This document shows positions 4,901-16,846 of a DNA stretch of 21,015 nucleotides, in pieces; within the stretch, counting starts at the first letter, position 1; each line of letters starts with the position of its first letter. Below the pieces are notes generated by a model. It saw only the letters and a list, made by a program, of their open reading frames with translations, searched no databases and was not told where the DNA came from. The DNA comes from a virus. The stretch covers positions 1 through 21,015 of the IMG/VR virus record IMGVR_UViG_3300009376_000104; one strand, written 5' to 3'. The translations under genes and the position numbers were made by a program.

Positions 4901-5449
4901 CTATCTTAGGTTAAACCAGTCTTCGTCCTTAACCTGCTCTGTAGGAATCTGGGTTCGACCTACTAAAATCTGGTATAGACTCTTTCCTTCCTTGTCCTCT
5001 CTTAGATCATAAGGATCTGCAATGGCAGAATAATGTGGGTACAAGTTAGGATTAGTTGTGTATCTAGGCCAATTTACCTGTGTCCACCCAATGTTAGAAG
5101 GATTGATATCTGGTTGAACATTTGTAGGCAAATACCTATTGATCGTTTCCCCCGGTGGATTACCCCAATAATAGATAGGATAAACAAATGTATGACCTTC
5201 ATCTGGTAAATCTAAATTAGGATTATCAGGATCGATTATTGGGTCGCCACCAGTATTTACATTTATAGAGGGTAAGCCACTTTTATCACTAATAAGTCTA
5301 TAAGTAGGGTTGATTATGCGCGATGAACGTCCATACATTTGTTGTGATGGAGCCATCCAATTAACATCAGGAGGGGTCCATTCTAATAGACTGTCTCCAT
5401 GAGCATAATAGTCGCTCGGGCTCATTCCTATTGGTACTCTTCTAGCCAT
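4901..5449 (-). CDS. Hypothetical Pro/Asn/Tyr-rich protein (182 aa)
   Basis: No family was recognised. The protein starts MARRVPIGMSPSDYYAHGD and is rich in Pro, Asn, Asp, Tyr and Trp throughout, with little predicted helix. This suggests an extended or beta-rich structural polypeptide. There is no signal peptide or membrane segment. Its ATG overlaps the TAA of the GNAT-like gene (TAATG), so it is probably co-translated with it. It lies between tail genes and putative internal virion genes and is presumably a virion or assembly protein, but nothing specific can be claimed. Confidence 0.7.
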   Translation of the reverse strand: MARRVPIGMSPSDYYAHGDSLLEWTPPDVNWMAPSQQMYGRSSRIINPTYRLISDKSGLPSINVNTGGDPIIDPDNPNLDLPDEGHTFVYPIYYWGNPPGETINRYLPTNVQPDINPSNIGWTQVNWPRYTTNPNLYPHYSAIADPYDLREDKEGKSLYQILVGRTQIPTEQVKDEDWFNLR

Positions 5450-6000
5450 TATTGAATCCTCTGTTTTAATTCTTTAGTTATAACCATGTATGAATGATTC
5501 CAATCTTTTAGTTTTCTTGCCATACCCTTTCTGGTCCATGCCTCTAATGCAGAGCAACCAGTTCTTAAAGCAAACCCTTCTACCATATCTAAAAACATAT
5601 ACCATTTATCTAAACCACTACCGTCTTTTCCGCCAAGAGTAATAACTCTTAACACTCTCTTTCTTGGGTAGGATATAACCTGTGTTATCATTGCTGCAAT
5701 TGTCTCACCATATTCCATAGCTACCCACAACTGCATCGCTCCATTAATTAACTGCTCATACACATCACTGGAAATAATCTCACCTTCAGAATGTTTTAAA
5801 GCAACCTTAATTAACGGTTCACACTCTTCCCATATAAAGTCAACATCTTCATCGCTTACTAATACAACCTTAACCGAGCTTGATCCAAGATCCTGGACTT
5901 CCTTTTTTGAAGTAGTAGATTCCTTCTCCCCCTCCAGGGTTCCAGTTTGTCCCATCGGCGTATCTAACGTCACCTTCTCTTGGTCTTTGCGGTTCGGCAT
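5449..6000 (-). CDS. GNAT-like (N-acetyltransferase fold) phage protein (183 aa)
   Basis: From about residue 43 (VKVVLVSDEDVDFIWEECEP) the protein looks like the GNAT-like proteins found in podovirus structural operons. A helical N-terminal part comes first, then a central strand pair (LWVAMEYGETIAAMITQVISYP and RVLRVITLGG), and a C-terminal EAWTRKGMARKLKDW segment. The usual acetyl-CoA pyrophosphate loop (R/Q-x-x-G-x-G/A) is not clear; RKGMARKL is the closest stretch. The catalytic status is therefore uncertain. With the ATG at 6000 the first 42 residues overlap the 3' end of the upstream gene by 131 bases and are low-complexity. The only other in-frame ATG before the GNAT-like part is at 5955. 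An AGAGAG sequence 5 bases before 6000 weakly favours the longer form. Its virion role, if any, is unknown. Confidence 0.7.
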   Translation of the reverse strand: MPNRKDQEKVTLDTPMGQTGTLEGEKESTTSKKEVQDLGSSSVKVVLVSDEDVDFIWEECEPLIKVALKHSEGEIISSDVYEQLINGAMQLWVAMEYGETIAAMITQVISYPRKRVLRVITLGGKDGSGLDKWYMFLDMVEGFALRTGCSALEAWTRKGMARKLKDWNHSYMVITKELKQRIQ

Positions 6001-6160: not shown

Positions 6161-7773
6161 CAGTAAGCCCTGATTCCTCTGTCCCCAGCATTCTTAATAT
6201 CCAATGTATAGCCATCTAGCCTCCAAGTCTGATCTCCTGTTGATTCAAACTTGACACCTATATACTTTCCTGTTACATTACATGAAACTTTGGACTGTGT
6301 TGCAGGGTTAAAAGTTGTTGGCCCCTGCCAGGTTATAGCCTCCTCTGTAGACATCTGATGACCTACATATACATTAACAGTAGAGTCGGTAGATGCTGAC
6401 ATCATAGGATATACAGCCGTTACCCTCTTAACCATGCTCTGATTAGGTTGGCCTTGAGCATCCAGAATTAATCCAGTCCTTTGTATATAGCTGGTCATAT
6501 TAGATGTATCGGCTTTATTACCTGCATTGTCTCTATATATTTTAGTATTAGTTGGAGAAGCCATGCTTAAACTCTTACCAGCTAAGTTAAAGTAAGATGT
6601 AGCTACCGATTCATTCCAGTTTAACGTATCCGTAGCCCATGTGGATGTTGCTGAGTTCCATGAACCCGGAGCTAGAGGATTACCCTCTGTACCAAATTCA
6701 ATGAAACCAACGTTAGGAAGGTCACGTATAGTAAAAGTATTATTAGACCAATTCCAAACAAGAGCTTTATCACACTGGGCATTAGTAACATTAGCTGATG
6801 ATACATAACAGGCCCACATTTCTGTCTTATTGTAGTCAGCCGTAACAAAGCATTTCTCAAATTCGTCCCCATTAATATCGGTAAATATAAAGTCTCTCAT
6901 CTTATGAGGAAGGATAGATGTAAGTCTGTCACCAGTATTAATGTACATATCACCATAGGCCATTACAAAGTGACCACCATCAAACTCCCTTATACAGTTC
7001 TTAGCTAATGCGCCAACATTAGGTGAGAGCTGCACAAATGAAAAGATAAAAGGATTACCTACATAACTCATCTTATAGGTGGAGTATTGTTTATAAATCA
7101 TAAAGTCACCACGTAAGGGCAACCCATCAACTATAATACCTTTACTGTCTTCTAACGCATACTCGCCAGCATCTACGGTAGCCAGAGTCTCGTCCCATGA
7201 TCCAGGCACCGTTTGCGTTGCTGCTGCCGTAGACCACTTAACAAGACTGTTGTATGGTACTGTTGACTTCGTAACATTCAAAGCAACCAAGAAAGATTTA
7301 AATGCTCTTAATGATTTACACTCTGTGCTTGCAGGCCAGTTAGTAAGATCTGCCATCTTGGTGGTAACAGAAGGAACACCGGCTGTTAATGCCCAGAACT
7401 GAGGATCATCATACCCATTGGTCATCACCAGTATACCACCTAATACTGTAGCTGTCCAGTTCTCTCTAGCAGTAGCATTATAGTCTCCACTGGCTCTGGT
7501 GATATCAGTCCATGTCGTACCATTATGAACATATATCTTAGCTAATCCGCCTACTATCCAGTAGTTAGCACCACCTATTTCTAGGTTAGTAATAAAGTAC
7601 GGAGCTATAGGACAGGATTCCATGACCTCTAAGTAGCCTGGACTCTTCTGTATTGCATTATGCTCTGCCCTTATGTTATTACCTTCTGTCCACGCATTAG
7701 GCGGCAGTTGCCAAGCATTAATATCCTTGACAATACCATGTTCGCCTACATTATTTACAGGAACTAGACTCAT
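6160..7773 (-). CDS. Tail nozzle-like / stabilisation structural protein (537 aa)
   Basis: This 537-residue beta-rich protein starts MSLVPVNNVGEHGIVKDINAWQLPPNAWTEGNNIR. That opening is typical of the large tail tubular or nozzle proteins of short-tailed phages, where the 'LP...W....N.R' segment precedes a beta-propeller-like body. The rest has repeated Trp/Gly/Asn strands (GANYWIVGGLAKIYVHNG, MIYKQYSTYKMSYVG, HFVMAYGDMYINTGDR). The C-terminus, ending RLDGYTLDIKNAGDRGIRAY, resembles a terminal beta-sandwich. No enzymatic motif is seen. It probably forms part of the tail knob below the head-tail adaptor. Assignment to T7 gp12-, P22 gp10- or SU10-nozzle-type families needs a structure or profile comparison. 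Its TGA-end overlaps the next ATG (TGATG), and its own ATG overlaps the preceding stop (ATGA). Confidence 0.82.
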   Translation of the reverse strand: MSLVPVNNVGEHGIVKDINAWQLPPNAWTEGNNIRAEHNAIQKSPGYLEVMESCPIAPYFITNLEIGGANYWIVGGLAKIYVHNGTTWTDITRASGDYNATARENWTATVLGGILVMTNGYDDPQFWALTAGVPSVTTKMADLTNWPASTECKSLRAFKSFLVALNVTKSTVPYNSLVKWSTAAATQTVPGSWDETLATVDAGEYALEDSKGIIVDGLPLRGDFMIYKQYSTYKMSYVGNPFIFSFVQLSPNVGALAKNCIREFDGGHFVMAYGDMYINTGDRLTSILPHKMRDFIFTDINGDEFEKCFVTADYNKTEMWACYVSSANVTNAQCDKALVWNWSNNTFTIRDLPNVGFIEFGTEGNPLAPGSWNSATSTWATDTLNWNESVATSYFNLAGKSLSMASPTNTKIYRDNAGNKADTSNMTSYIQRTGLILDAQGQPNQSMVKRVTAVYPMMSASTDSTVNVYVGHQMSTEEAITWQGPTTFNPATQSKVSCNVTGKYIGVKFESTGDQTWRLDGYTLDIKNAGDRGIRAY

Positions 7774-8309
7774 GCTTTAGGATACCAACCTTTAATCTCA
7801 TTAACCTTGGTAACCCAAGCATCAAGACCGTTCTCTGTAATGTACTCTATTTGGGACGCTGGAGTTCCATAAGCACTTAACCTTTTGTCTTCCCATCCAA
7901 ACTCCACCGTTGTCCATACAATTTCCCAAGTGTCCCCCACCTTTACTATACCGTTTCTTTCATGCGTCCTGACCACAACACCATGCTCATCCTTTAGCGC
8001 ATCATCTGAAGGAGGATTAGGGTTTGTAAAGTCGCTATCAACTAACTCACTTTCTTCTTTTGCCTGATTTTCGTACTTTTCAGTCCAAGACCCGTTATCT
8101 AAAACGGGGCCAACTTGTACCGCCTTATACCCTGCCGTTGGATTTGGGGAAGCCTTTGACACAGATACTATATGATACTGTGATTTCAGTGTTTCATTTT
8201 GAAACACGCTAGATGAAAAGCAAGTTGAAGGATAATCCTTCTTTAAGTCTCCCATACCATAAGGCCATTGTACTACACTACCGTCTATTACTTTTGCATA
8301 CGTTGTCAT
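7770..8309 (-). CDS. Putative tail-fibre-associated protein (179 aa)
   Basis: The protein starts MTTYAKVIDGSVVQWPYGMGDLKKDYPSTCF, a 'YAKVIDG.VVQWPY...L..D.P.T.F' pattern seen in phage tail proteins that accompany fibre genes. The C-terminus (DKRLSAYGTPASQIEYITEN followed by GLDAWVTKVNEIKGWYP) resembles the ends of tail-fibre assembly or attachment proteins. The middle, about residues 80-125, is charged and probably flexible. It may be a fibre chaperone or a small structural tail protein. The family pattern is recalled from memory, so confidence in the role is moderate. It overlaps both neighbours by 4 bases (ATGA). Confidence 0.78.
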   Translation of the reverse strand: MTTYAKVIDGSVVQWPYGMGDLKKDYPSTCFSSSVFQNETLKSQYHIVSVSKASPNPTAGYKAVQVGPVLDNGSWTEKYENQAKEESELVDSDFTNPNPPSDDALKDEHGVVVRTHERNGIVKVGDTWEIVWTTVEFGWEDKRLSAYGTPASQIEYITENGLDAWVTKVNEIKGWYPKA

Positions 8310-9328
8310 TTGTTAGCTCCAAGTGTTTGCGAAGAGAACATTGCCATTGAGTACCTTGTCCCCCCTTCTGTTTGTATTGCTGTTGCCTCATGTAAAACCC
8401 AAGATGGAAAAATAATACATTGATTATGTTTGGTTTCTATTTCAATGTTATACTCAGGAAAAATAAATTTACTTCCAGATATACCTCCCTTTAAAAATGT
8501 AGTAACAGAAGAAAAACTAGACACATCCCTGTGAGCCTTATACCCTTGAGAGTCTGTATACCTATTTATAAAGGTGCTATCTAAATTACAAAGAGCGTAA
8601 TGAATATTAGCTGGGTGAGATGAGCAAAATAATTCTACCACCTCTTCAGACCATAGCTTCCTATTATATTTTAGTATAGAAGAATAATCTCTATTAGCAT
8701 AAACATTATCCAAAGTCAACCCATCGCCATTTAATAGTCCTTCAGCCCCATCTTTAAGCCTAATATCTTTAACTGACTTTAAATTCATTATATAATCTAA
8801 ATGAATCAGTTCATTATTGATGTCATTTAACTCATCTTCTGAAAATAAATTATCAATGACAACATATCCAAAATCTTTTACTCTATTTGATGACGCTTCT
8901 AAGTTACTAGACAAAAATTTGCTCCCATTTTCACCGCCTATATTCCACCTTGGTAATGTAGTTTTTTCTATACCAACCTTACTGCAAACGAAATCAAAAT
9001 CTTCCTGTAAATTCTCATATCTTCCAACAAAATCAACAATAGTATTCTTATCTTTACCGCATACAAAGTCCATATCGCTAGGTTTTCGTACAAAAGCAAA
9101 AGAAAAATAATCATCTGGAAAATCTGTATCTCTTACTGGGGTGTGCATCTCGTATCCACAATGAACTGCATCAGGCCAAGCATAACCACCAATTCCTGCT
9201 GAACCTCCAAAGTATTCAGGTTGACCTTTATAGCCCCTACAATACTTCGCTAATACAGATGTGATACTACTTCCTGCTGTGCTTGGAACATGATGGAAAA
9301 CAAATTTATGAGTATCACTAACTAGCAC
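8306..9328 (-). CDS. Shortened sulfotransferase-like domain fused to 2OG-Fe(II) oxygenase (340 aa)
   Basis: Two domains are visible. Residues 8-120 resemble Sulfotransfer_2-type enzymes. KFVFHHVPSTAGSSI (8-22) matches the 5'-phosphosulfate-binding loop usually written H-x-P-K-x-A-G-x-S/T. FAFVRKPSD (78-85) matches the 3'-phosphate-binding segment, and DFVGRYENLQEDFDFVCSKVGI (99-120) matches the domain's late part. Ser16 stands where the family has its PAPS-binding lysine. Only about 15 residues separate the second and third blocks, where usual enzymes have many more, so the centre seems deleted and sulfotransfer activity is doubtful. Residues about 150-340 form a 2OG-Fe(II) dioxygenase with H266-R-D268, distal H313 and R325. 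The start is GTG at 9328, chosen for a GGAG sequence 5 bases upstream. The substrate is unknown. Confidence 0.8.
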   Translation of the reverse strand: MLVSDTHKFVFHHVPSTAGSSITSVLAKYCRGYKGQPEYFGGSAGIGGYAWPDAVHCGYEMHTPVRDTDFPDDYFSFAFVRKPSDMDFVCGKDKNTIVDFVGRYENLQEDFDFVCSKVGIEKTTLPRWNIGGENGSKFLSSNLEASSNRVKDFGYVVIDNLFSEDELNDINNELIHLDYIMNLKSVKDIRLKDGAEGLLNGDGLTLDNVYANRDYSSILKYNRKLWSEEVVELFCSSHPANIHYALCNLDSTFINRYTDSQGYKAHRDVSSFSSVTTFLKGGISGSKFIFPEYNIEIETKHNQCIIFPSWVLHEATAIQTEGGTRYSMAMFSSQTLGANK

Positions 9329-9333
9329 CTTGA

Positions 9334-9337
9334 CTCC
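9334..9337 (-). promoter_or_regulatory. Shine-Dalgarno GGAG supporting a GTG start at 9328
   Basis: GGAG lies 5 bases before the GTG at 9328, just after the stop of the upstream oxygenase gene. With no in-frame ATG before the KFVFHHVPSTAG motif, it supports GTG initiation, the only non-ATG start I assign in the window. Confidence 0.55.
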
Positions 9338-9340
9338 GTT

Positions 9341-9904
9341 TCATGCAAAATTATACCACCCTGTTAAAATCATCTTTTCTTCATCGCAGGGTTCACCCTT
9401 ATGAGTGAATGTCCAATCCGCAGGCCACATAACAACCTTTCCCTTTTCAGATTTGCAAGTATACTCTTGGTGTAAGAATTCTGTTCCACCGCCTTTTTCT
9501 ATTGTATGGCAATACATCAGCCAAACCAAAACTCTGCTTGTAGCTGGTTCCGCGCCAGAAGTCCTTTCAGAATGCCATTTTAAAAAACCTTCTCCCGGCT
9601 TGTAATACTGGATGTTAAAAGGAACCATATTAAATCTAGCAAGATCATTTAACTTGGGGTAAACTTTTACATAATCATCCAATACAGTCTGAAGCTCGAC
9701 ACATAACCCTTTAGATAACTCAGACTCATACTCATCAACAATTTGCAGTTCTGTACTTTTTTTTACACTTTCGTCGGGATACGAACCTGTATTATTTGCA
9801 ACCATCCCCCTTACATGTTTTGAAGGGTTATTGAAGAAATGTTCTATATATTTGTCAGCAATACTAATATCTTTAATAAATTGCTCGTGTATAAATTGTG
9901 GCAT
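9341..9904 (-). CDS. 2OG-Fe(II) oxygenase, HxE variant (187 aa)
   Basis: This is a single-domain 2-oxoglutarate/Fe(II)-dependent oxygenase of the prolyl-4-hydroxylase-like superfamily. NIQYYKPGEGFLKWHSE (98-113) carries the iron ligands H111 and E113, so the usual HxD is HxE here. RVLVWLMYC (124-132) and the KGGGTEF turn (137-143) follow. GKVVMWPADWTFTHKGEP gives the distal ligand H168, and K177 is placed to bind the 2-oxoglutarate carboxylate. All required parts are present, so it is probably active. Its ATG overlaps the stop of the glycine-rich tail gene (TAATG), which ties its expression to that protein. A role in modifying a virion protein, DNA or host molecule cannot be told apart from sequence. 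Confidence 0.88.
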   Translation of the reverse strand: MPQFIHEQFIKDISIADKYIEHFFNNPSKHVRGMVANNTGSYPDESVKKSTELQIVDEYESELSKGLCVELQTVLDDYVKVYPKLNDLARFNMVPFNIQYYKPGEGFLKWHSERTSGAEPATSRVLVWLMYCHTIEKGGGTEFLHQEYTCKSEKGKVVMWPADWTFTHKGEPCDEEKMILTGWYNFA

Positions 9905-11085
9905 TATGTAGATATTTGGGCTTGTACAACTGATCCGTTACCTCCATCTCCGCCTGTTGCATTTGGGGCGCTACCAGCAGTACCGCCATTTGCTGTTACT
10001 GTTCCACTATTAGAGTATGTACCACCATGAAGGAGCATTAACACCCCGCCTCCAGATGCTCCACCAGACGCTCCTTGCTGACACGCACTGTTTGTAGTAC
10101 CAGAACTACCACCTAAAGCGGTAATTGATCCACCACTAGCAATTGTTAGATCCCCTTTAACAATAAGCCATAATATACCACCAACTATGCTTTGTGCTGC
10201 CCCAGCATTATCTCCGCCAGAGCTTCCCGCAGGGTTTCCAGCGCCACCAGAGGCAGAATAACAGTTTTGCCAGTTCCTACTCCCACCGCCTCCAGCCCCA
10301 CCATAATCTGCTACAGCACCAACAGAAAGATTGTATCCTGGAGAAGAGCTAATTCTAAGTGCGGTAGAGCCTCCTCCAGCACCTCCAGAGAATGTCCCAG
10401 CTAACCCTCCAGCAGACCCAGAGATTTGCCCTCCAGAATTTCCTGAATGAAAATTATAGCCTCCAGTTGCTCCACCGCCACATTGACCAGAAGAAGCTGT
10501 TGTGGTTCCATTCCCCCCATCAGTTCCTTGGCTATTGTAAAAGGTATTGGAAGTATTACCAGCTATATTATGAACACTTCCGCCAGATGCCCCTGCTTTT
10601 AAAATCTGAAAAATTGTTCCATCTCCACTTATCTCAGCTTGGTTGGCGACAGCAGTAACAGCGGCATTTCCGCATCCTGCAAAATCAGCGGCAGATAAGG
10701 TTTGTGATCCACTTGCTGTAAACAATGGTAACCTTAATCCGTTTGCATTAACAGCTGCAGAGTCAGAACCTCCTGTGTTTGTTGGATCTGCAAGCGCGCC
10801 GATTCTAGCATTTAATGTTCCACTAATGGAACAGTCTCCCTTTACATATATCAACATCCCTCTACAGGGCTGATCTGTTGTAATGGTGTGTCCTGCTCCT
10901 ATAGTCAAACTAGTGTAGTTCTTAACAACCATATCACCATCATAAGAACCTGACTTGTTTAAAACTGTATAAGTAACATCACCTGATGTAGTTAATGCGC
11001 CATCGGAACCATCACCAAAGTAATTACCCCCTCCTGCTGCACTACCCATCGCAAGAAGGGCTGCTTTATTTGCTCCTAGAGACAT
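9904..11085 (-). CDS. Glycine-rich tail tip / putative adhesin protein (393 aa)
   Basis: The N-terminal 100 residues (MSLGANKAALLAMGSAAGGG, then GDGSDGALTTSGDVTYTVLN and LTIGAGHTITTDQPCRGMLIYVKG) form a beta-structured segment. This type is known in marine phage tail proteins. The remaining two thirds are dominated by Gly, Ser, Ala, Thr and Asn, with many GGAGGG and GGSSG runs. Such composition is found in phage receptor-binding adhesins that fold as packed polyglycine helices, so a tip or adhesin role is a reasonable inference. I chose the ATG at 11085 because AGGGGGTGA precedes it directly. The frame is open to an ATG at 11130, but that would overlap the tail fibre gene by 37 bases and has no ribosome binding site. 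Confidence 0.85.
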   Translation of the reverse strand: MSLGANKAALLAMGSAAGGGNYFGDGSDGALTTSGDVTYTVLNKSGSYDGDMVVKNYTSLTIGAGHTITTDQPCRGMLIYVKGDCSISGTLNARIGALADPTNTGGSDSAAVNANGLRLPLFTASGSQTLSAADFAGCGNAAVTAVANQAEISGDGTIFQILKAGASGGSVHNIAGNTSNTFYNSQGTDGGNGTTTASSGQCGGGATGGYNFHSGNSGGQISGSAGGLAGTFSGGAGGGSTALRISSSPGYNLSVGAVADYGGAGGGGSRNWQNCYSASGGAGNPAGSSGGDNAGAAQSIVGGILWLIVKGDLTIASGGSITALGGSSGTTNSACQQGASGGASGGGVLMLLHGGTYSNSGTVTANGGTAGSAPNATGGDGGNGSVVQAQIST

Positions 11086-11086
11086 A

Positions 11087-11095
11087 TCACCCCCT
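11087..11095 (-). promoter_or_regulatory. Shine-Dalgarno AGGGGGTGA that decides the adhesin start
   Basis: The purine-rich AGGGGGTGA starts inside the stop codon of the tail fibre gene (TAG at 11094-11096) and ends one base before the ATG at 11085. It selects this ATG over the in-frame one 45 bases upstream. Confidence 0.6.
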
Positions 11096-12047
11096 ACGCC
11101 ATCGCTATGCCAGCAGCAAACCCATACCACTGAGTGCCACCGTCAAATGTAGTAAATGTTAATATATCGACTCCTGATGCTGTTACAGTAGGAGCAGTTC
11201 CACCGGGCCACTTAACTGCATTACCACCGCCACCATGTGCGCCAGAAATAAACGAAGGAGTCCCCGCACCTAAGTTAGTGCCTATAAGTGTTAAAGAGTT
11301 CGAATTAGATGCAAGAGCATTTGTTAATCCAATATTAAATGTACCAGATGTTATTGTGAGAGACTGAACATTTCCATCCTCTAAATCAATATCAAAGGCT
11401 GCTGATTTAGAACCCAAAGCATTTACCGCTTCAGAGTAGTCTTTCATCTTAGGCTTGGTGGCTAATTGATCTCCGAATACTAACTCTCCAGTCATTGTTC
11501 CGCCAGCCAAAGGTAGAGCAGCAATATCTGATAAAACCTCAGAAGCGCTTCTTCCCTCTACCGCTGTACCGTCAATCCTTAAAAAGTCATTATCAACAAC
11601 ACCAGCAGCAAACTGTGCCACATCATATTGTGATATACCTTGAGCCACGGCCAGTTCTGTAGTATCAATTTCTAAGCCGCCATTAGCCTTTAGATCTGTG
11701 CTGAATGTTGTACCCGTTAGGTCTAAGCCATCACCCGCTGTATATGTAGTTCCTGCTGCAGTCTGCCATGAAGACGTTCCGTCTCCATCCTCTCTAAGAA
11801 ACTTTGTACCACCTGTTTCCCCCGTGGATAATACCGCAGTACCCTCAACATCAAGTGTTGTTTTCCCATCTAACAAGTTAAGCTCAGCCGCAGTTGTGGT
11901 TACTGCCGCCGCACCTAACGTAGTAAACTGTGACTGTAATACTGATTTAATTAACCTAAGATGATCGTCACCTTGTGACACAGGATCGCTAGATGTTGGA
12001 TTCGTATCAACTAGTTGGCTAATATATGTTGCTGTTTCTAATGCCAT
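11094..12047 (-). CDS. Tail fibre protein (317 aa)
   Basis: The N-terminus (ISQLVDTNPTSSDPVSQGDD followed by HLRLIKSVLQSQF) is the anchoring segment typical of phage tail fibres: a 'NPT..DPV..GDDH.RLIKS.L' pattern. The middle is a Thr/Asp/Gly-rich repetitive shaft (LNLLDGKTTLDVEGTAVLS, LREDGDGTSSWQ, LPLAGGTMTGELVFGD). The last 60 residues (GGGGNAVKWPGGTAPTVT and DILTFTTFDGGTQWYGF) match a common C-terminal fibre ending. It is probably trimeric. A good ribosome binding site (AAGGGGAT) lies 5 bases before the ATG. The gene stands between the adaptor and the glycine-rich adhesin, which may sit at its tip. Confidence 0.88.
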   Translation of the reverse strand: MALETATYISQLVDTNPTSSDPVSQGDDHLRLIKSVLQSQFTTLGAAAVTTTAAELNLLDGKTTLDVEGTAVLSTGETGGTKFLREDGDGTSSWQTAAGTTYTAGDGLDLTGTTFSTDLKANGGLEIDTTELAVAQGISQYDVAQFAAGVVDNDFLRIDGTAVEGRSASEVLSDIAALPLAGGTMTGELVFGDQLATKPKMKDYSEAVNALGSKSAAFDIDLEDGNVQSLTITSGTFNIGLTNALASNSNSLTLIGTNLGAGTPSFISGAHGGGGNAVKWPGGTAPTVTASGVDILTFTTFDGGTQWYGFAAGIAMA

Positions 12048-12058
12048 GATTAATCCCC

Positions 12059-12685
12059 TTAAAAGTAGCCACTCGTGTTCATTACTCTTAGCTCAGAACC
12101 AGAGTGACGATCTTTGTCATCCTGAACTTGTAAATCGTTTACAGCTTGTCTGTAAGCTGTAGCCCATAACTGCACTCTTGCGTCATTCTGCAAGAAAGGC
12201 TCTGCCTCTAATAAAGCTCCATATAAATATATATCGGGATTATATGTAAGCATGCTATTAGTTGTGGCGGCAGGAGTTAATGCAGGTATTCGTTTATAAT
12301 AAAGCATAGAATAACCGTCAGCAGTTGCAGGTGACGGTCCGAGTCTGAAGTTCTCACCAATGATGGTGAATGCTTCTGGGGTTCCACCAGTAGATCCAGC
12401 CCATATCCTATTCATTATCTCTGGCGTAACATAAGCTAATGGAACTATAGGGTCAAGAGTCAAATGAAATGTTCTTGCCTGTATGTAATCTGTGGGTAAC
12501 GCATAATCTCTAGTTCCCGCAACCAGTGTGCCGGTAGCTGTAGTCTCCATAAGCCTAAGACGCAAGTTACGATTGATTCTCGCTTCCGCCAAGTCTATGA
12601 ACTCTTGTATTCTGTCTGTTAAGTCGCTCCTATTTAACCAGTTGGCGACAGCAGTCTGAAGTTCTGCATAAGTTCCTATAGCCAT
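12059..12685 (-). CDS. Head-to-tail adaptor protein (208 aa)
   Basis: The protein starts GTYAELQTAVANWLNRSDLTDRI, followed by EFIDLAEARINRNLRLRLME. This is the N-terminal helical pattern of short-tailed-phage adaptor proteins (gp6/SU10-adaptor-like) that bind below the portal. A beta segment follows (GTRDYALPTDYIQARTFHL), as does a FTIIGENFRLGPSPA stretch. The C-terminal half has helices with a YLYGALLEAEPFLQNDARV segment and ends in a short charged tail. Length and order agree with the family. The ATG overlaps the TAA of the upstream paralogue gene (TAATG). Confidence 0.85.
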   Translation of the reverse strand: MAIGTYAELQTAVANWLNRSDLTDRIQEFIDLAEARINRNLRLRLMETTATGTLVAGTRDYALPTDYIQARTFHLTLDPIVPLAYVTPEIMNRIWAGSTGGTPEAFTIIGENFRLGPSPATADGYSMLYYKRIPALTPAATTNSMLTYNPDIYLYGALLEAEPFLQNDARVQLWATAYRQAVNDLQVQDDKDRHSGSELRVMNTSGYF

Positions 12686-13041
12686 TATATTGTCATCTCC
12701 GCAATGTATACTGTTCCAGCGGCAGATACCTGTAAAGCGGATACTTTCTGTCCTGAACTAATGCGCCAATAAGTAGGCCAGTCTTTCTCTTGGTAACCTT
12801 CCCCAACAGCCTCGTATTCCTTCCATGAGTTTGTTTGTGCCGACCATGCACCAACCACATCACTCCAAGGTGTAGTATCTACCTCTCCACCAAACGCAAG
12901 AAAAGCGTCCTCTGTAGCTGTTATCATTACAGCACTTATACCAGAGCCAACCGCCTCTGCCATTTCGGTAGAGGTTGTAGTGGTAGTTATAGAATGTAGC
13001 TTATTAGCTAATCTATAAGTATCTGGCTTATCAATTCTCAT
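12685..13041 (-). CDS. Small structural-type protein, paralogue A (118 aa)
   Basis: This is a beta-rich protein of unknown function. Its N-terminal YRLANKLHSITTTTTSTEMA, middle GISAVMITATEDAFLAFGG and C-terminal KDWPTYWRISSGQKVSALQV then VYIAEMT line up over the whole length with the gene directly upstream (13038-13328). An insertion of about 20 residues around positions 55-75 accounts for its greater length. This is a tandem duplication. A place between capsid and adaptor genes suggests a head decoration or head-completion role (inference). Confidence 0.75.
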   Translation of the reverse strand: MRIDKPDTYRLANKLHSITTTTTSTEMAEAVGSGISAVMITATEDAFLAFGGEVDTTPWSDVVGAWSAQTNSWKEYEAVGEGYQEKDWPTYWRISSGQKVSALQVSAAGTVYIAEMTI

Positions 13042-13328
13042 CTGGTTAATTCTGTTATATAAACAACTGAATCACTACTGCCAGCTCTTAACCCAGAAAT
13101 CCTATCTCCAGGGCTAACACGTATGTAATGAGGCCAATCCTTAATAAAGTAACCACATGAACCAGCGGTAGCGGCGCTTCCATGCTCGTCAATTTTAATA
13201 AACACAGGTTCACTGGCATTTATTATAATAGCGTAGCATTGTGCAGAGACAGCATCACCCAGTGTTACTGAGGTTGACAGCGCTGTAAACGTATAATTAA
13301 AATTGTTTAATCTGTATAAGTCTCCCAT
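13038..13328 (-). CDS. Small structural-type protein, paralogue B (96 aa)
   Basis: This is the shorter copy of the tandem pair. YRLNNFNYTFTALSTSVTLG, CYAIIINASEPVFIKI and KDWPHYIRVSPGDRISGLRA then VVYITELT match the corresponding parts of the next gene. The fold is probably a small beta-sandwich, and its function is unknown. AGGGGTAA lies upstream of the ATG at 13328. The stop overlaps the start of paralogue A by 4 bases (ATGA), so the two are co-translated and may be made in similar amounts. Confidence 0.75.
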   Translation of the reverse strand: MGDLYRLNNFNYTFTALSTSVTLGDAVSAQCYAIIINASEPVFIKIDEHGSAATAGSCGYFIKDWPHYIRVSPGDRISGLRAGSSDSVVYITELTR

Positions 13329-13339
13329 CTTATTTACCC

Positions 13340-13669
13340 CTATAGTTTGGTTGGTGCAGTCCTAAAATATTTGTTATCAGGATCGTTTAAATATTTAGCC
13401 AGTAACTTTGGATCTTTATCAATTGCTCCATTGGTTTCATTCTTCCATTGCTCATAGACATTAAAAGGAATAGAAGCTACCTTATGCCAGTCTCCCCTTT
13501 TACCCAAGCTAAGTTTATCACCATATAAGTTATACTCTTTTTTATTCTGTTCTATTGTAGGTTCGGCATCCTGGTAAGTAGTTATAGATATCTCACCATC
13601 AGGTTCTTCAATCCATTCCTGATGTCTATAAGGCATTACATCCAACAGCTCTCCACTTCTTCTTTTCAT
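13340..13669 (-). CDS. Conserved hypothetical phage protein (109 aa)
   Basis: The protein starts MKRRSGELLDVMPYRHQEWI. A middle GDKLSLGKRGDWHKVASIPF segment follows, and the end is KYLNDPDNKYFRTAPTKL. The pattern 'W.KVASIP...YEQW...NG' followed by 'LNDPD.KYFRTAP' recurs, as I recall it, in many podoviruses of this gene order, near the adaptor gene. The role is not known to me. It may be a head completion or capsid-associated factor. Its ATG overlaps the TGA of the 52-residue gene upstream (ATGA). Confidence 0.75.
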   Translation of the reverse strand: MKRRSGELLDVMPYRHQEWIEEPDGEISITTYQDAEPTIEQNKKEYNLYGDKLSLGKRGDWHKVASIPFNVYEQWKNETNGAIDKDPKLLAKYLNDPDNKYFRTAPTKL

Positions 13670-13824
13670 CCTACTAAGAACCCCTTGCCGCCTATAGCTT
13701 TAGTCTGATCGTTAGACCATTCCTTTAAATGCTCTTCAGCAGTCTTTTGCTTTGGTTTGCTTGGAGCCTTTTCTTTCTTAGCACCAAACGCTTTTCTTAA
13801 CTTACTTTCGATTCTCTGAACCAT
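13666..13824 (-). CDS. Small basic peptide (52 aa)
   Basis: This frame is below the usual length cut-off. It starts at the ATG at 13824 with MVQRIESKLRKAFGAKKEKA and continues with a Lys/Pro-rich part and HLKEWSNDQTKAIGGKGFLV. It overlaps the 3' end of the prolyl-4-hydroxylase-like gene by 28 bases in another frame and ends in an ATGA overlap with the next gene. The ribosome binding site is weak (GGGTGATG). Without it a gap of 127 bases would break an otherwise gapless operon, which supports it. The function is unknown. Confidence 0.65.
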   Translation of the reverse strand: MVQRIESKLRKAFGAKKEKAPSKPKQKTAEEHLKEWSNDQTKAIGGKGFLVG

Positions 13825-14354
13825 AGTGTCATCACCCATTTTTCACCTTCATGTGGCGGCATTCCTTGATGCAATGATAATTCATGCGCCTTATTATTCT
13901 CATCAACATTACCAAACATTAATAACCTACCACCAATGGGGCCGATCATTAAATTTAACTTTGGAAATGCAGTGGACCCACCAACAACGTTGTTTAAATA
14001 AACCAAACAAGTTAATAGTCTTTGTCCACCGTTCTCAAGATGTACTCCATCTAGTGCATCATAATGAGGTTTATATTCCTGGTCATCAGTATAGCGCAAA
14101 ACATTAATAGGTTCTGCCCTTTCCAATGGTATAGCTGCTATATCTGCAACCCTTTGACACACCTCTGGAAAGTCAGAGTGAGCTACCCAAGTACCGTGAG
14201 AAGTCCTATCTTTATCTGGAACTAAGCCTTTATCTGTTGCTACTGTACTTCTTTCTAGTTTATCTCTTGAATGCTCAATTACTTGACTGCACTCTTCAGG
14301 AGAGATCACACCATCTACCACCGCAATGGTAGGAGTCTTTACATACACAAACAT
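13797..14354 (-). CDS. Prolyl-4-hydroxylase-type 2OG-Fe(II) oxygenase (185 aa)
   Basis: This is the clearest prolyl 4-hydroxylase-like domain in the window. After an N-terminal IAVVDGVISPEECSQVIEH, the core shows YKPHYDAL with H97 and D99 as iron ligands. LLTCLVYLNNVVGGSTAFP (113-131) is the classic strand plus GG-S-T-x-F-P turn. LSLHQGMPPHEGEKWVMTLW gives distal H162 and K172 for the 2-oxoglutarate carboxylate. The length is that of a minimal catalytic domain. It is cytosolic, with no signal peptide. All catalytic residues are present. The substrate may be a prolyl or other residue in a virion or host protein, but this cannot be read from the sequence. AAGGGG lies upstream of the ATG. Confidence 0.9.
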   Translation of the reverse strand: MFVYVKTPTIAVVDGVISPEECSQVIEHSRDKLERSTVATDKGLVPDKDRTSHGTWVAHSDFPEVCQRVADIAAIPLERAEPINVLRYTDDQEYKPHYDALDGVHLENGGQRLLTCLVYLNNVVGGSTAFPKLNLMIGPIGGRLLMFGNVDENNKAHELSLHQGMPPHEGEKWVMTLWFRESKVS

Positions 14355-14363
14355 CGCTACCCC

Positions 14364-14531
14364 TTATTTAAATGGATCTTCTACCTTGTGTTTAGGACTA
14401 TTGCCGGGAGATTTATACCCAGACTTACCTGTATCAAGGCTCTTAATGGCCTTCACTAAACTTTCATCACCGCCTCTATGGACGGGAGAGTATAAAGTAA
14501 TTGGACCCTCTACTGATTTTTTCTTGCTCAT
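14364..14531 (-). CDS. Small basic peptide (55 aa)
   Basis: This is an unlisted short frame with ATG at 14531 (MSKKKSVEGPITLYSPVHRG), rich in Lys, Ser, Gly and Pro, ending KHKVEDPFK. Its ATG overlaps the stop of the 56-residue gene (TAATG), and an AAAGG sequence lies just upstream. It fills the space before the prolyl-hydroxylase-like gene. No fold is predicted by eye; it may be a small DNA- or protein-binding virion peptide. The function is unknown. Confidence 0.62.
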   Translation of the reverse strand: MSKKKSVEGPITLYSPVHRGGDESLVKAIKSLDTGKSGYKSPGNSPKHKVEDPFK

Positions 14532-14701
14532 TAGCCTTTCTCTTTTTGATTGTCTTGGCCCTTGACGGTGCCGCCAGTACCTAGTTTAGAAATGATACCT
14601 GTAATACCGCCATAAGCATCCCCTTTACTTTTAAAAGATTTGTCAGCAGCTACACCCTGTGGGTTATCTGACCACTTCTCTGTTCCCTTTTTATAAGCCA
14701 T
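14531..14701 (-). CDS. Small conserved Gly/Lys-rich peptide (56 aa)
   Basis: This is an unlisted short frame starting MAYKKGTEKWSDNPQGVAAD, followed by KSFKSKGDAYGGITGIISKL and a Gly/Lys/Gln-rich tail. It has the best ribosome binding site of the window (AAGGAGG, 5 bases before the ATG), which makes expression likely. The AYGGITGI segment could be a short amphipathic helix or turn; the rest is probably disordered. It is coupled to the next peptide gene by TAATG. The function is unknown. Confidence 0.7.
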   Translation of the reverse strand: MAYKKGTEKWSDNPQGVAADKSFKSKGDAYGGITGIISKLGTGGTVKGQDNQKEKG

Positions 14702-14703
14702 AA

Positions 14704-15222
14704 CTACCTCCTTACGTAATGTAAAAATACTTGGGCTAATCTACTGCCCTCAAATTTATCCCTCCAATGAGGACTTTCGGTTCCTTTATAAACAAGGCCA
14801 TCACCTGCTTCTAATTTAACTTTATGCACAGTATCTGTCTCTAAATAGATGGGCCAAATATCTTCATTAGGTTCACGCATTAAAGTTAAGGTAACACTAA
14901 ACTCACAACTATGTCTATCAATATGTTTTTTTAATTCATCACCATTCTTATAAACTCTAAGATAAGAATAAGTAGGAATTAAATCTACACCAGTATGCTT
15001 TTCCATATCAGACGATAGGTAGCACATTAAATTTTTCATGGCTAAGTCATCATGCCAAGCAGGAGTGTTAGGTATCTGGTCGTCTACAAATCCGTGAGTC
15101 TCTTTTGTTGGTATGGCATCAGGAAGTGTCGCTTTGTTATAGGCATATACGCCAAGAAAATCCAACAGTTCACCAGTTAATAACTCCCTTACAATTTTAA
15201 ACTTAGTAGGCCCAAGAGACAT
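14704..15222 (-). CDS. 2OG-Fe(II) oxygenase (172 aa)
   Basis: This is a small 2-oxoglutarate/Fe(II) oxygenase domain. YSYLRVYKNGDELKKHIDRH (85-104) contains iron ligands H100 and D102. FSVTLTLMRE (108-117) is the following strand, and DGLVYKGTESPHWRDKFEGS then R161 supplies distal H152 and the 2-oxoglutarate-binding arginine. The N-terminal half (MSLGPTKFKIVRELLTGELL) is the usual helix that precedes the core. All catalytic positions are filled. It overlaps the upstream oxygenase gene by 20 bases. A GG-turn as in prolyl hydroxylases is lacking, so its substrate probably differs. Confidence 0.87.
   Translation of the reverse strand: MSLGPTKFKIVRELLTGELLDFLGVYAYNKATLPDAIPTKETHGFVDDQIPNTPAWHDDLAMKNLMCYLSSDMEKHTGVDLIPTYSYLRVYKNGDELKKHIDRHSCEFSVTLTLMREPNEDIWPIYLETDTVHKVKLEAGDGLVYKGTESPHWRDKFEGSRLAQVFLHYVRR
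14707..14713 (-). promoter_or_regulatory. Near-consensus Shine-Dalgarno AAGGAGG for the 56-aa gene
   Basis: On the minus strand AAGGAGG lies 5 bases before the ATG at 14701, inside the last codons of the upstream oxygenase gene. It is the strongest ribosome binding site in the window and is the main reason to accept the short gene that follows. Confidence 0.75.
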
Positions 15223-15826
15223 ATGAATATCTTGCTCCTTTGGTTACAGGCTCTACCCTATGCGGATACATGAAGTTAGAAGGGAATATAATAACATCTC
15301 CTTTTTCAAAAGGAATGATTTGATCTCCCCACATCACAAACTTACCACCCTCAAAGTCTTCATTTAGTTGTCCTACAATGGACAACATTGGAATCCCTTT
15401 TACATTTCCATCAAACAGCGAATTAATATGGTCACAGTGTTCAGCCATCTGATGAGACTCCGCATACTTCAAAAACTTTACCACTGAATAACCGTTCCAT
15501 CCATCAAACCATTTGTAGCCAAAACTTCTTACATACTCTGTTAATACTTTAGATATACCATTTATAATCACATTATTAATATGAGCATGATTCTTATTCC
15601 AATTAGGACTTTTAAACCCTACAAATTCTGGTTCTGCATCTCCAGAGGGTTTAGACTTAACCTCTCTTTGCCAACCAAAGCCATGTTCAGGATCATTTAT
15701 TTCATATCCAGTAAAGTCGTGATTCTCCCACTGACTTTTCTTTAATGTTTCTAAAGCGTACTCACAAAAATCTACACTTAAAAAACGTTTCTTGTGAAAT
15801 AAATAATCTTTTATATTTTCTTTCAT
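15203..15826 (-). CDS. 2OG-Fe(II) oxygenase (207 aa)
   Basis: This is the first gene after the capsid gene. The N-terminal LFHKKRFLSVDFCEYALETL is the lead helix of this superfamily. SVVKFLKYAESHQMAEHCDH (114-133) carries iron ligands H130 and D132. LSIVGQLNEDFEGGKFVMWG (148-167) is the strand with the GG turn, and GDVIIFPSNFMYPHRVEP gives distal H189, with R199 ten residues later. All catalytic residues are present, so it is probably an active hydroxylase. No Shine-Dalgarno sequence precedes the ATG; a GC-rich hairpin ends 5 bases before it. Initiation may therefore depend on structure or run-through from the capsid gene. Confidence 0.9.
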   Translation of the reverse strand: MKENIKDYLFHKKRFLSVDFCEYALETLKKSQWENHDFTGYEINDPEHGFGWQREVKSKPSGDAEPEFVGFKSPNWNKNHAHINNVIINGISKVLTEYVRSFGYKWFDGWNGYSVVKFLKYAESHQMAEHCDHINSLFDGNVKGIPMLSIVGQLNEDFEGGKFVMWGDQIIPFEKGDVIIFPSNFMYPHRVEPVTKGARYSYVSWAY

Positions 15827-15862: not shown

Positions 15863-16846
15863 CTATACGTCAGCCAAGAAACCGTTAGCCGCTTGGTTCT
15901 TAGACATAAGACCGTACTCAGCCAGAATCATCTGTTTTATACTGTCCCCAGTCTTTGCTAGACTTTCGGTCATAAACGGTCGCAAGTATGCGACAGCCCA
16001 GAAGTCAAAGTCTATAAACCAGCAGTCTCGCGCTCTCTGGAACCGATCTGGAATTATTTTAAAAGTTCCAAAGTCGGAAACATAAACGTCAACAGATGCC
16101 ACAACATGAGCAGGTGCAGACTTATCTGCCGCTGTTCTTAGTTCTGACACTGTTTGGGTTAACGCCGAAATTACCTGCTTATTGGAAGAACCAACAAGAA
16201 TGGTGTCTGGAGTTCCACCGCTATCAAAGCATTCTTTGATTACGGTCTTCATTCCAGCTTCGGTTAATGTACCCGTTGATGTAGCATCACTAGCAGTATC
16301 CGTACCATTACCGCTAGAAGCAGAGCCTAGCCCCGGTGGGGAAGGTGCGCCTCCAAGAGTATGGTAATTGGTAGCTACCCATGCGCCTAGACCTGCTGTC
16401 GTTCTAGCAGTCGCAGGACCGGGGCTTGGGCCAGCACCAGCGGATTGTGCTACGTTATCCATCAACATCTTTTCCATATCACGCTTCATTTCTTTGGCGC
16501 GTTTCGCTAACTGATACGCTTGGGAAGATTTACGCCCAGCAAAATTAACGGCCTCGGCTGTCCCACTCGTCTGGACGGCTTTAACCGATATCTGGGTATA
16601 ATTCCCTACCCTTGTGGGTTCGCTTACAGCGGTAGAAGTTGGATCATCACCTTCAGTGGAGCGATTAGCCGCCGCCGCTGTTAGTGAGTCCGTCTGCCAC
16701 TCAAAGTAAGTATTCTCAGCAGTCTCTCGACCACAACCACTTAGGAACGGTGTCTCAGTTGGCGAAATATTATAGATGATATTACTAAGGTCTTCCCTGA
16801 TACCTATGGCACCATAGGTTTCCCTAGTATTCGTCGGAATAGCCAT
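15863..16846 (-). CDS. Major capsid protein, SU10-like (327 aa)
   Basis: The start MAIPTNTRETYGAIGIREDL, followed by SNIIYNISPTETPFLS, is typical of the DUF5309/SU10-type major head protein family. The family places the N-arm before an 'I..I.P.ETPF...' motif. LAKRAKEMKRDMEKMLMDNV (113-132) is the long spine-like helix. A Gly/Ser/Thr/Pro-rich stretch at about 136-195 is followed by LTEAGMKTVIKECFDSGGTP and the end part (RARDCWFIDFDFWAVAYLRP, ESLAKTGDSIKQMILAEYGL). It assembles the icosahedral head around the scaffold encoded upstream. A GGAG lies 7 bases before the ATG. HK97-fold assignment is from family knowledge. Confidence 0.93.
   Translation of the reverse strand: MAIPTNTRETYGAIGIREDLSNIIYNISPTETPFLSGCGRETAENTYFEWQTDSLTAAAANRSTEGDDPTSTAVSEPTRVGNYTQISVKAVQTSGTAEAVNFAGRKSSQAYQLAKRAKEMKRDMEKMLMDNVAQSAGAGPSPGPATARTTAGLGAWVATNYHTLGGAPSPPGLGSASSGNGTDTASDATSTGTLTEAGMKTVIKECFDSGGTPDTILVGSSNKQVISALTQTVSELRTAADKSAPAHVVASVDVYVSDFGTFKIIPDRFQRARDCWFIDFDFWAVAYLRPFMTESLAKTGDSIKQMILAEYGLMSKNQAANGFLADV

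Follow-up and report, generated by a model that had tools for sequence, protein, structure and literature searches.

What does a tailed phage do with five different 2-oxoglutarate (2OG)-Fe(II) oxygenases among the genes for its virion proteins? The question is raised by the IMG/VR viral fragment IMGVR_UViG_3300009376_000104, analyzed here over a stretch of 21,015 bases (the window), which comes from a small tailed marine phage and whose main genes all lie on the minus strand. They run from the large terminase through the portal, the scaffold and the major capsid protein (MCP) to the oxygenases OX1 and OX2, two small open reading frames (ORFs) and the oxygenase OX3; next come small virion genes, a gene for a tail fibre-like protein, a Gly-rich ORF, OX4, OX5 and further tail genes (Table 1). 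Our data point toward an answer for one of the five: OX3 is predicted to be a prolyl 4-hydroxylase (P4H), and it probably hydroxylates prolines in a loop of the MCP encoded just upstream.

A sequence-only reading of the window had recognized 2OG-Fe(II) oxygenase domains in five frames, and all five are indeed present as conserved genes on the minus strand. Profile hidden Markov model searches matched four of them (OX1, OX3, OX4 and the C-terminal half of OX5) to PF13640, OX5 close to the threshold (E = 1.4e-5 and 26.4 bits versus a cutoff of 27 in one search; 29.1 bits, above the cutoff, in another). OX2 had no Pfam match and was recognized by phrog_2954 instead; its AlphaFold model (pLDDT 94.5) has prolyl hydroxylases as the best matches in the PDB. 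The double-stranded beta-helix fold is seen in OX2 by structure prediction and Foldseek and in the other four by the PF13640 profile only. After alignment, the metal ligands H-x-D/E...H were found in all five enzymes: H130/D132/H189 of OX1 are kept in 62/62 homologues, H100/D102/H152 of OX2 in 61/61 and H97/D99/H162 of OX3 in 79/79, OX4 has H111, E or D at position 113, and H168 in 14/14, and H266/D268/H313 of OX5 are retained in its nearest relative. The basic residue claimed along with them, expected to bind the C5 carboxylate of 2OG, is less certain as a shared feature: R199 of OX1 (59 of 62 homologues), K172 of OX3 (78/78) and K177 of OX4 (14/14) are conserved and OX5 has R325, but in OX2 the canonical R161 is arginine in only 32 of 61 homologues and the invariant basic residue is R154 (61/61). 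The ratio of nonsynonymous to synonymous substitutions (dN/dS) of OX1 to OX3 is ~0.05 to 0.2 where computable, indicating purifying selection. The wide divergence of the five sequences and their placement in the late operon were also borne out. The operon for virion proteins holds five distinct 2OG-Fe(II) oxygenases, as judged by sequence and one fold prediction, with predicted enzymatic activity.

Residues 6 to 181 of OX3 align with PDB entry 3itq (E = 3e-31), which, like 5hv0, we take to be the P4H of Bacillus anthracis. Further matches were the P4H of Chlamydomonas (E = 5e-27; presumably entries 2jig and 3gze), human C-P4H (E = 3e-15) and the prolyl 4-hydroxylase 5c5t (E = 5e-11), presumably that of Chlorovirus PBCV-1. 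Because the match to solved P4Hs is nearly full length and includes the iron ligands and the 2OG-binding lysine, OX3 can be assigned to the P4Hs by sequence. The enzymes of B. anthracis and Chlamydomonas are its closest solved sequence relatives and have the same catalytic residues; however, they are cellular, whereas OX3 is phage-borne and linked to a capsid gene. In a scan of IMG/VR with OX3 alone as the query, the MCP gene was just upstream of OX3 in 50/50 testable copies, i.e., those with at least 2.6 kb of upstream sequence. No annotated capsid genes were found near the P4Hs of Erwinia phage Y3 and Microcystis phages.

The MCP has the HK97 fold, according to both sequence (phrog_1328) and fold (Foldseek matches to the capsids of Pa223 and SU10), and the nearest annotated MCPs, ~40 to 46% identical, are those of uncultured spring viruses, Sinorhizobium phage phiM5 and Pelagibacter phage HTVC106P. 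A proline-rich insertion that follows the spine helix and precedes the next helix of the A domain holds AGAGPSPGPATAR and GGAPSPPGLGS. Of all the proteins of the window, compared for proline-rich [SAT]PxP or PP stretches, only the MCP has two [SAT]PxP stretches, and a few others have one; no Gly-X-Y repeat of a collagen-like substrate was noticed in the window.

The loop was compared across 187 MCP-bearing contigs, 108 with and 79 without OX3, which reduce to 69 representatives at 95% identity, and the MCP tree used for this excluded the loop; contigs too short to show OX3 (L010, L021, L032 and L041) were not scored as losses. OX3 changes six times on this tree. Loops of OX3-bearing contigs contain 2.15 SP motifs, compared to 0.51 in contigs without OX3, 0.91 compared to 0.03 PxP/PP motifs, and 4.4 compared to 2.3 prolines in total. 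Outside the loop, the number of prolines in the MCP (8.4 with and 9.1 without OX3) does not differ significantly (P = 0.13; P = 0.4 by phylogenetic generalized least squares [PGLS]). PF13640 was absent throughout the 36 OX3-negative records searched, most of which are fragments.

Two losses of OX3 can be followed in the loop itself. By DNA comparison, contigs L029 and L030 are nearly identical to L027 and L026, but 525 nucleotides covering OX3 are deleted, and a ribosome-binding-like AGGTGA now stands ahead of the next ORF. Over 1,926 shared codons, this near-isogenic pair differs by five amino acids: two in the terminase, none in the portal, one in the scaffold and two in the MCP. The latter are A163S and P166S, which convert GGAASPPGLGS to GGASSPSGLGS, and all four base differences between the MCP genes (positions 4545-5513 of L027 and 5103-6071 of L029) fall within 16 nucleotides at the proline loop, while ~470 nucleotides from the loop to the gene end are identical. 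P166 corresponds to Pro171 of the window, the proline before glycine, which is the position preferred by collagen-type prolyl 4-hydroxylases. The residue equivalent to Pro171 is proline in 33/33 OX3-bearing contigs of the clade, and SPPGLGS is invariant there, although 88 of the 327 MCP sites vary. In the second loss, four contigs (L065, L066, L074 and L075) have no P4H domain behind the MCP, as read by eye. Their OX3-bearing relatives carry the loop ASPVVG...GSPAPGPDG, whereas the loops after the loss read QATVVG (L065), LATPLG (L066) or a gapped variant, followed by GSVGPDG. In these four contigs, a small stand-alone ORF resembling the C-terminal tail of OX3 persists downstream of the MCP.

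In our model, OX3 would be produced from the block of genes that comes right after the capsid gene, and it would hydroxylate at least one Ser-Pro or Pro-Pro-Gly proline in the proline-rich loop of the phage's own MCP. Upon loss of OX3, the target prolines would lose their use and be replaced. The modification might yield a stiffer or better-packed capsid loop, contribute to capsid stability in seawater or provide a base for further modification. We propose this action for OX3 because of its linkage to the MCP and its co-variation with the loop prolines. Hydroxylation of virion proteins, as suggested in the sequence-only reading, thereby gains specific support for OX3 alone among the five. The wider claim, that there is a widespread group of marine phages with hydroxyproline capsids, made by a dedicated, capsid-linked P4H that co-evolved with the proline loop, is in our judgment evenly balanced.

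Several observations weigh against this model. The support for loop hydroxylation is wholly comparative, and hydroxyproline itself is a prediction from it. The PGLS value for the loop motifs (P < 1e-6) is overstated, with only about six independent changes of OX3, and some of the data tested were also those in which the motifs had been spotted. Some 30 OX3-negative contigs (L194-L217, L348-L370 and L068/L069/L073) retain a GSPAAG loop; Ser-Pro alone therefore does not need OX3 and is ruled out as the signal. Conversely, there are OX3-bearing contigs with weak motifs (ADPVVG in the L276 type and SPAAAA in L053), and the contrast between L286-L299 and the L149 group is blurred. The model of the MCP loop is of modest confidence, and its surface exposure is conjectural. 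As to the near-isogenic pair, L029 is identical to L030, so that the two represent a single loss event, their contigs end 195 nucleotides past the deletion so that OX3 could sit elsewhere in the genome, and the clustering of the changes within 16 nucleotides suggests a patch of recombination or local rewriting.

These points leave room for other explanations. The enzymes might have their targets in the host late in infection, such as translation factors of the EF-Tu type, small metabolites or surface sugars; their place in the operon would then reflect timing and the co-inheritance of OX3 and the loop would be due to chance. The Pseudomonas putida P4H has been solved with EF-Tu (4iw3), a structure that ranks with the best fold matches to OX2, GSPAAG loops occur without OX3, and an influence on the 2OG and nitrogen metabolism of the host has been proposed for cyanophages (PMC9602691). 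We nevertheless regard this as unlikely: the MCP gene accompanies OX3 in every testable case, the prolines of the loop track OX3 while those elsewhere in the MCP do not, and it is in OX3 and a loop proline that the nearly isogenic L027 and L029 differ, with few other changes. Nothing was found in support of an action on the host surface or DNA, which the sequence-only reading had also considered. It is more improbable still that OX3 and the loop were swapped by recombination as one capsid cassette, so that they would be associated through co-transfer and not as enzyme and substrate. Phage capsid modules do recombine, and four differences within 16 nucleotides are what a recombination patch would give. 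However, the ~470 identical nucleotides between the loop and the end of the MCP gene mean that loop and deletion do not form one visible tract, and losses in different clades strip prolines from different motifs. A last alternative takes all five for accessory genes drawn interchangeably from the pool of marine phages, without any specific role in the virion. OX4 and OX5 do occur in few relatives, some relatives lack OX1 and OX2, L040 has OX1 in another place and cyanophages have up to 24 such genes (PMC9602691); this alternative is nevertheless very hard to believe, since OX1, OX2 and OX3 are retained behind the MCP in most of the ~40 contigs of the clade under the low dN/dS given above. Hydroxylation of the MCP loop by OX3 is, in our view, the reading to be preferred.

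OX3 alone persists behind the MCP in more distant clades. As for its neighbors, OX1 directly precedes OX2 in 43 of 57 testable OX2 genes, and in L117 (around 9878-11098), L119, L124 and L125, a single fusion protein combines an OX2-like with an OX1-like domain (compare phrog_3531). Fusion and adjacency indicate that OX1 and OX2 probably work together as a pair. Profile comparison of OX2 gave nothing useful with OX1, and E = 1e-4 at 57% probability with OX3; OX1 itself weakly matches PKHD-type PiuC structures (E = 1.5e-4). Coming from the same gene block as OX3, the pair may act late on virion proteins, a role that is plausible by position only. A link of OX1 and OX2 to the first proline-rich stretch of the loop (GPSPGP) is ruled out by L033, L035 and L042, which carry both genes without GPSPGP. 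In L040 (9936-11148), a relative of OX1 lies in the fibre region, not behind the MCP, and beside another 2OG-like ORF; oxygenase genes thus move within the operon.

OX2 shares phrog_2954 with the so-called ferrochelatases of marine phages. The top Foldseek matches listed for its model are 2OG oxygenases (the best is P. putida P4H 4j25, E = 1.3e-8; PHD2 and others are also present) and not the ferrochelatase fold, and no Pfam ferrochelatase match was obtained among 30 members of OX2 or in the genes so labeled in HTVC033P and S-SM1. With an invariant H-x-D...H and a double-stranded beta-helix, in contrast to what the label implies, OX2 is ruled out as a ferrochelatase. The label of phrog_2954 and phrog_3531 appears to be wrong, and the genes look like misnamed 2OG-Fe(II) oxygenases. 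Pelagiphage and cyanophage genes under the phrog_2954 label are found at L128 12001-12645 and L129 11899-13015. Such genes have been taken as evidence for viral heme or iron metabolism (PMC9599517) and appear among seasonally enriched metabolic genes (PMC11561400); the relabeling would affect these published analyses of auxiliary metabolic genes, which rely on "ferrochelatase." Another label, denV/endonuclease V, is carried by SSM1_054 of S-SM1 (L129 8514-9002), which lies within an array of 2OG oxygenases and has no Pfam match. This label may be doubtful as well; OX3 and OX5 of the window also match the PHROG of that name.

OX4 and OX5 are rare among relatives and are located with fibre and adhesin genes. 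The N terminus of OX5 is an incomplete Sulfotransfer_2 domain: only positions 4 to 91 of the 252 of the profile were matched, at residues 2 to 84, a C-terminal piece was recognized by phrog_3347, and the middle is missing. In L027 (11113-12109), the two parts of OX5 are encoded as separate, overlapping ORFs. By these matches, OX5 joins a sulfotransferase-like domain of reduced length to a 2OG oxygenase domain. OX4 and OX5 could be accessory enzymes, replaceable and linked to the cassette of fibre and adhesin genes; a role on fibre or adhesin is a guess from position. Small conserved late genes at positions 7770-8309 and 5449-6000 of the window have weak PHROG matches of unknown function.

Table 1. 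Features of the window discussed in the text, with positions and supporting matches.
Feature	Position	Strand	Support or remark
MCP, 327 amino acids, proposed substrate of OX3	15863..16846	-	phrog_1328 E = 5e-93; Foldseek matches to the capsids of Pa223 (E = 4e-29) and SU10 (E = 1e-21)
First proline-rich stretch of the MCP loop, AGAGPSPGPATAR, residues 136-148	16403..16441	-	
MCP residues 165-175, GGAPSPPGLGS	16322..16354	-	Pro171 codon 16336-16334
OX1, 2OG-Fe(II) oxygenase, 207 amino acids, first gene past MCP	15203..15826	-	PF13640 E = 2e-11
OX2, 2OG-Fe(II) oxygenase, 172 amino acids, 20-nucleotide overlap with OX1	14704..15222	-	phrog_2954 E = 2e-44
Small ORF, 56 amino acids, between OX2 and OX3	14531..14701	-	ORF list
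Small ORF, 55 amino acids, directly ahead of OX3	14364..14531	-	relative intact at the OX3 deletion of L029/L030
OX3, predicted prolyl 4-hydroxylase, 185 amino acids	13797..14354	-	PF13640 E = 2.5e-14
ORF of 57 amino acids overlapping the end of OX3	13666..13839	-	relative retains start codon and ribosome site in the OX3 deletion of L029/L030
Tail fibre-like protein (context)	11094..12047	-	phrog_6465 E = 1e-10
Gly-rich adhesin-like ORF beside OX4 (context)	9904..11130	-	no match in PHROG search
OX4, 2OG-Fe(II) oxygenase, 187 amino acids, directly after the Gly-rich adhesin-like ORF	9341..9904	-	PF13640 E = 1.5e-10
OX5, 340 amino acids, N-terminal sulfotransferase-like domain and C-terminal 2OG-Fe(II) oxygenase	8306..9328	-	Sulfotransfer_2 E = 4e-8 at 2-84; PF13640 at 254-331

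Several 2OG oxygenases per marine phage are already known. Cyanophages S-SCSM1 and S-SZBM1 have 24 (PMC9602691) and nine (PMC9146016) such genes, respectively, and HTVC023P-type pelagiphages have eight non-orthologous types with "ferrochelatases" adjoining (PMC9599517). In deposited genomes, three 2OG oxygenases are almost consecutive in the structural region of HTVC033P, and an array stands behind the fibre gene of S-SM1. Five per phage, which had been called unusual from the sequence alone, is therefore not exceptional in number, nor is the proximity to structural or fibre genes. Like the window, these arrays comprise several divergent 2OG oxygenases, often near structural or fibre genes and paired with phrog_2954; publications treat them as genes of metabolism or DNA repair and name no substrates, whereas the window adds a capsid-adjacent P4H that co-varies with the MCP. 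The link between OX3 and the capsid loop is what is new: the literature searched contained no prolyl hydroxylase that is encoded next to a capsid gene and co-varies with the MCP, and a search for phage capsids with hydroxyproline or a prolyl hydroxylase returned nothing on phages. The P4H of PBCV-1 is, like OX3, a small, virus-encoded and sequence-related enzyme; however, PBCV-1 is an algal giant virus, whereas OX3 has a fixed place behind a capsid gene and varies in step with a loop of the capsid protein. The PBCV-1 enzyme hydroxylates proline peptides in a sequence-specific manner (PMC7019647).

2OG-Fe(II) oxygenases are among the commonest "auxiliary" genes of marine phages, and the literature cited here treats them as genes of host metabolism, without substrates. 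If OX3 modifies the capsid, at least some of them would be enzymes of virion maturation. The MCP loop would be the first defined substrate of a marine-phage 2OG oxygenase, and the phage would have a posttranslationally hydroxylated shell. The role of viral prolyl hydroxylases, which is open for chloroviruses (PMC7019647), would then become testable with a single peptide.

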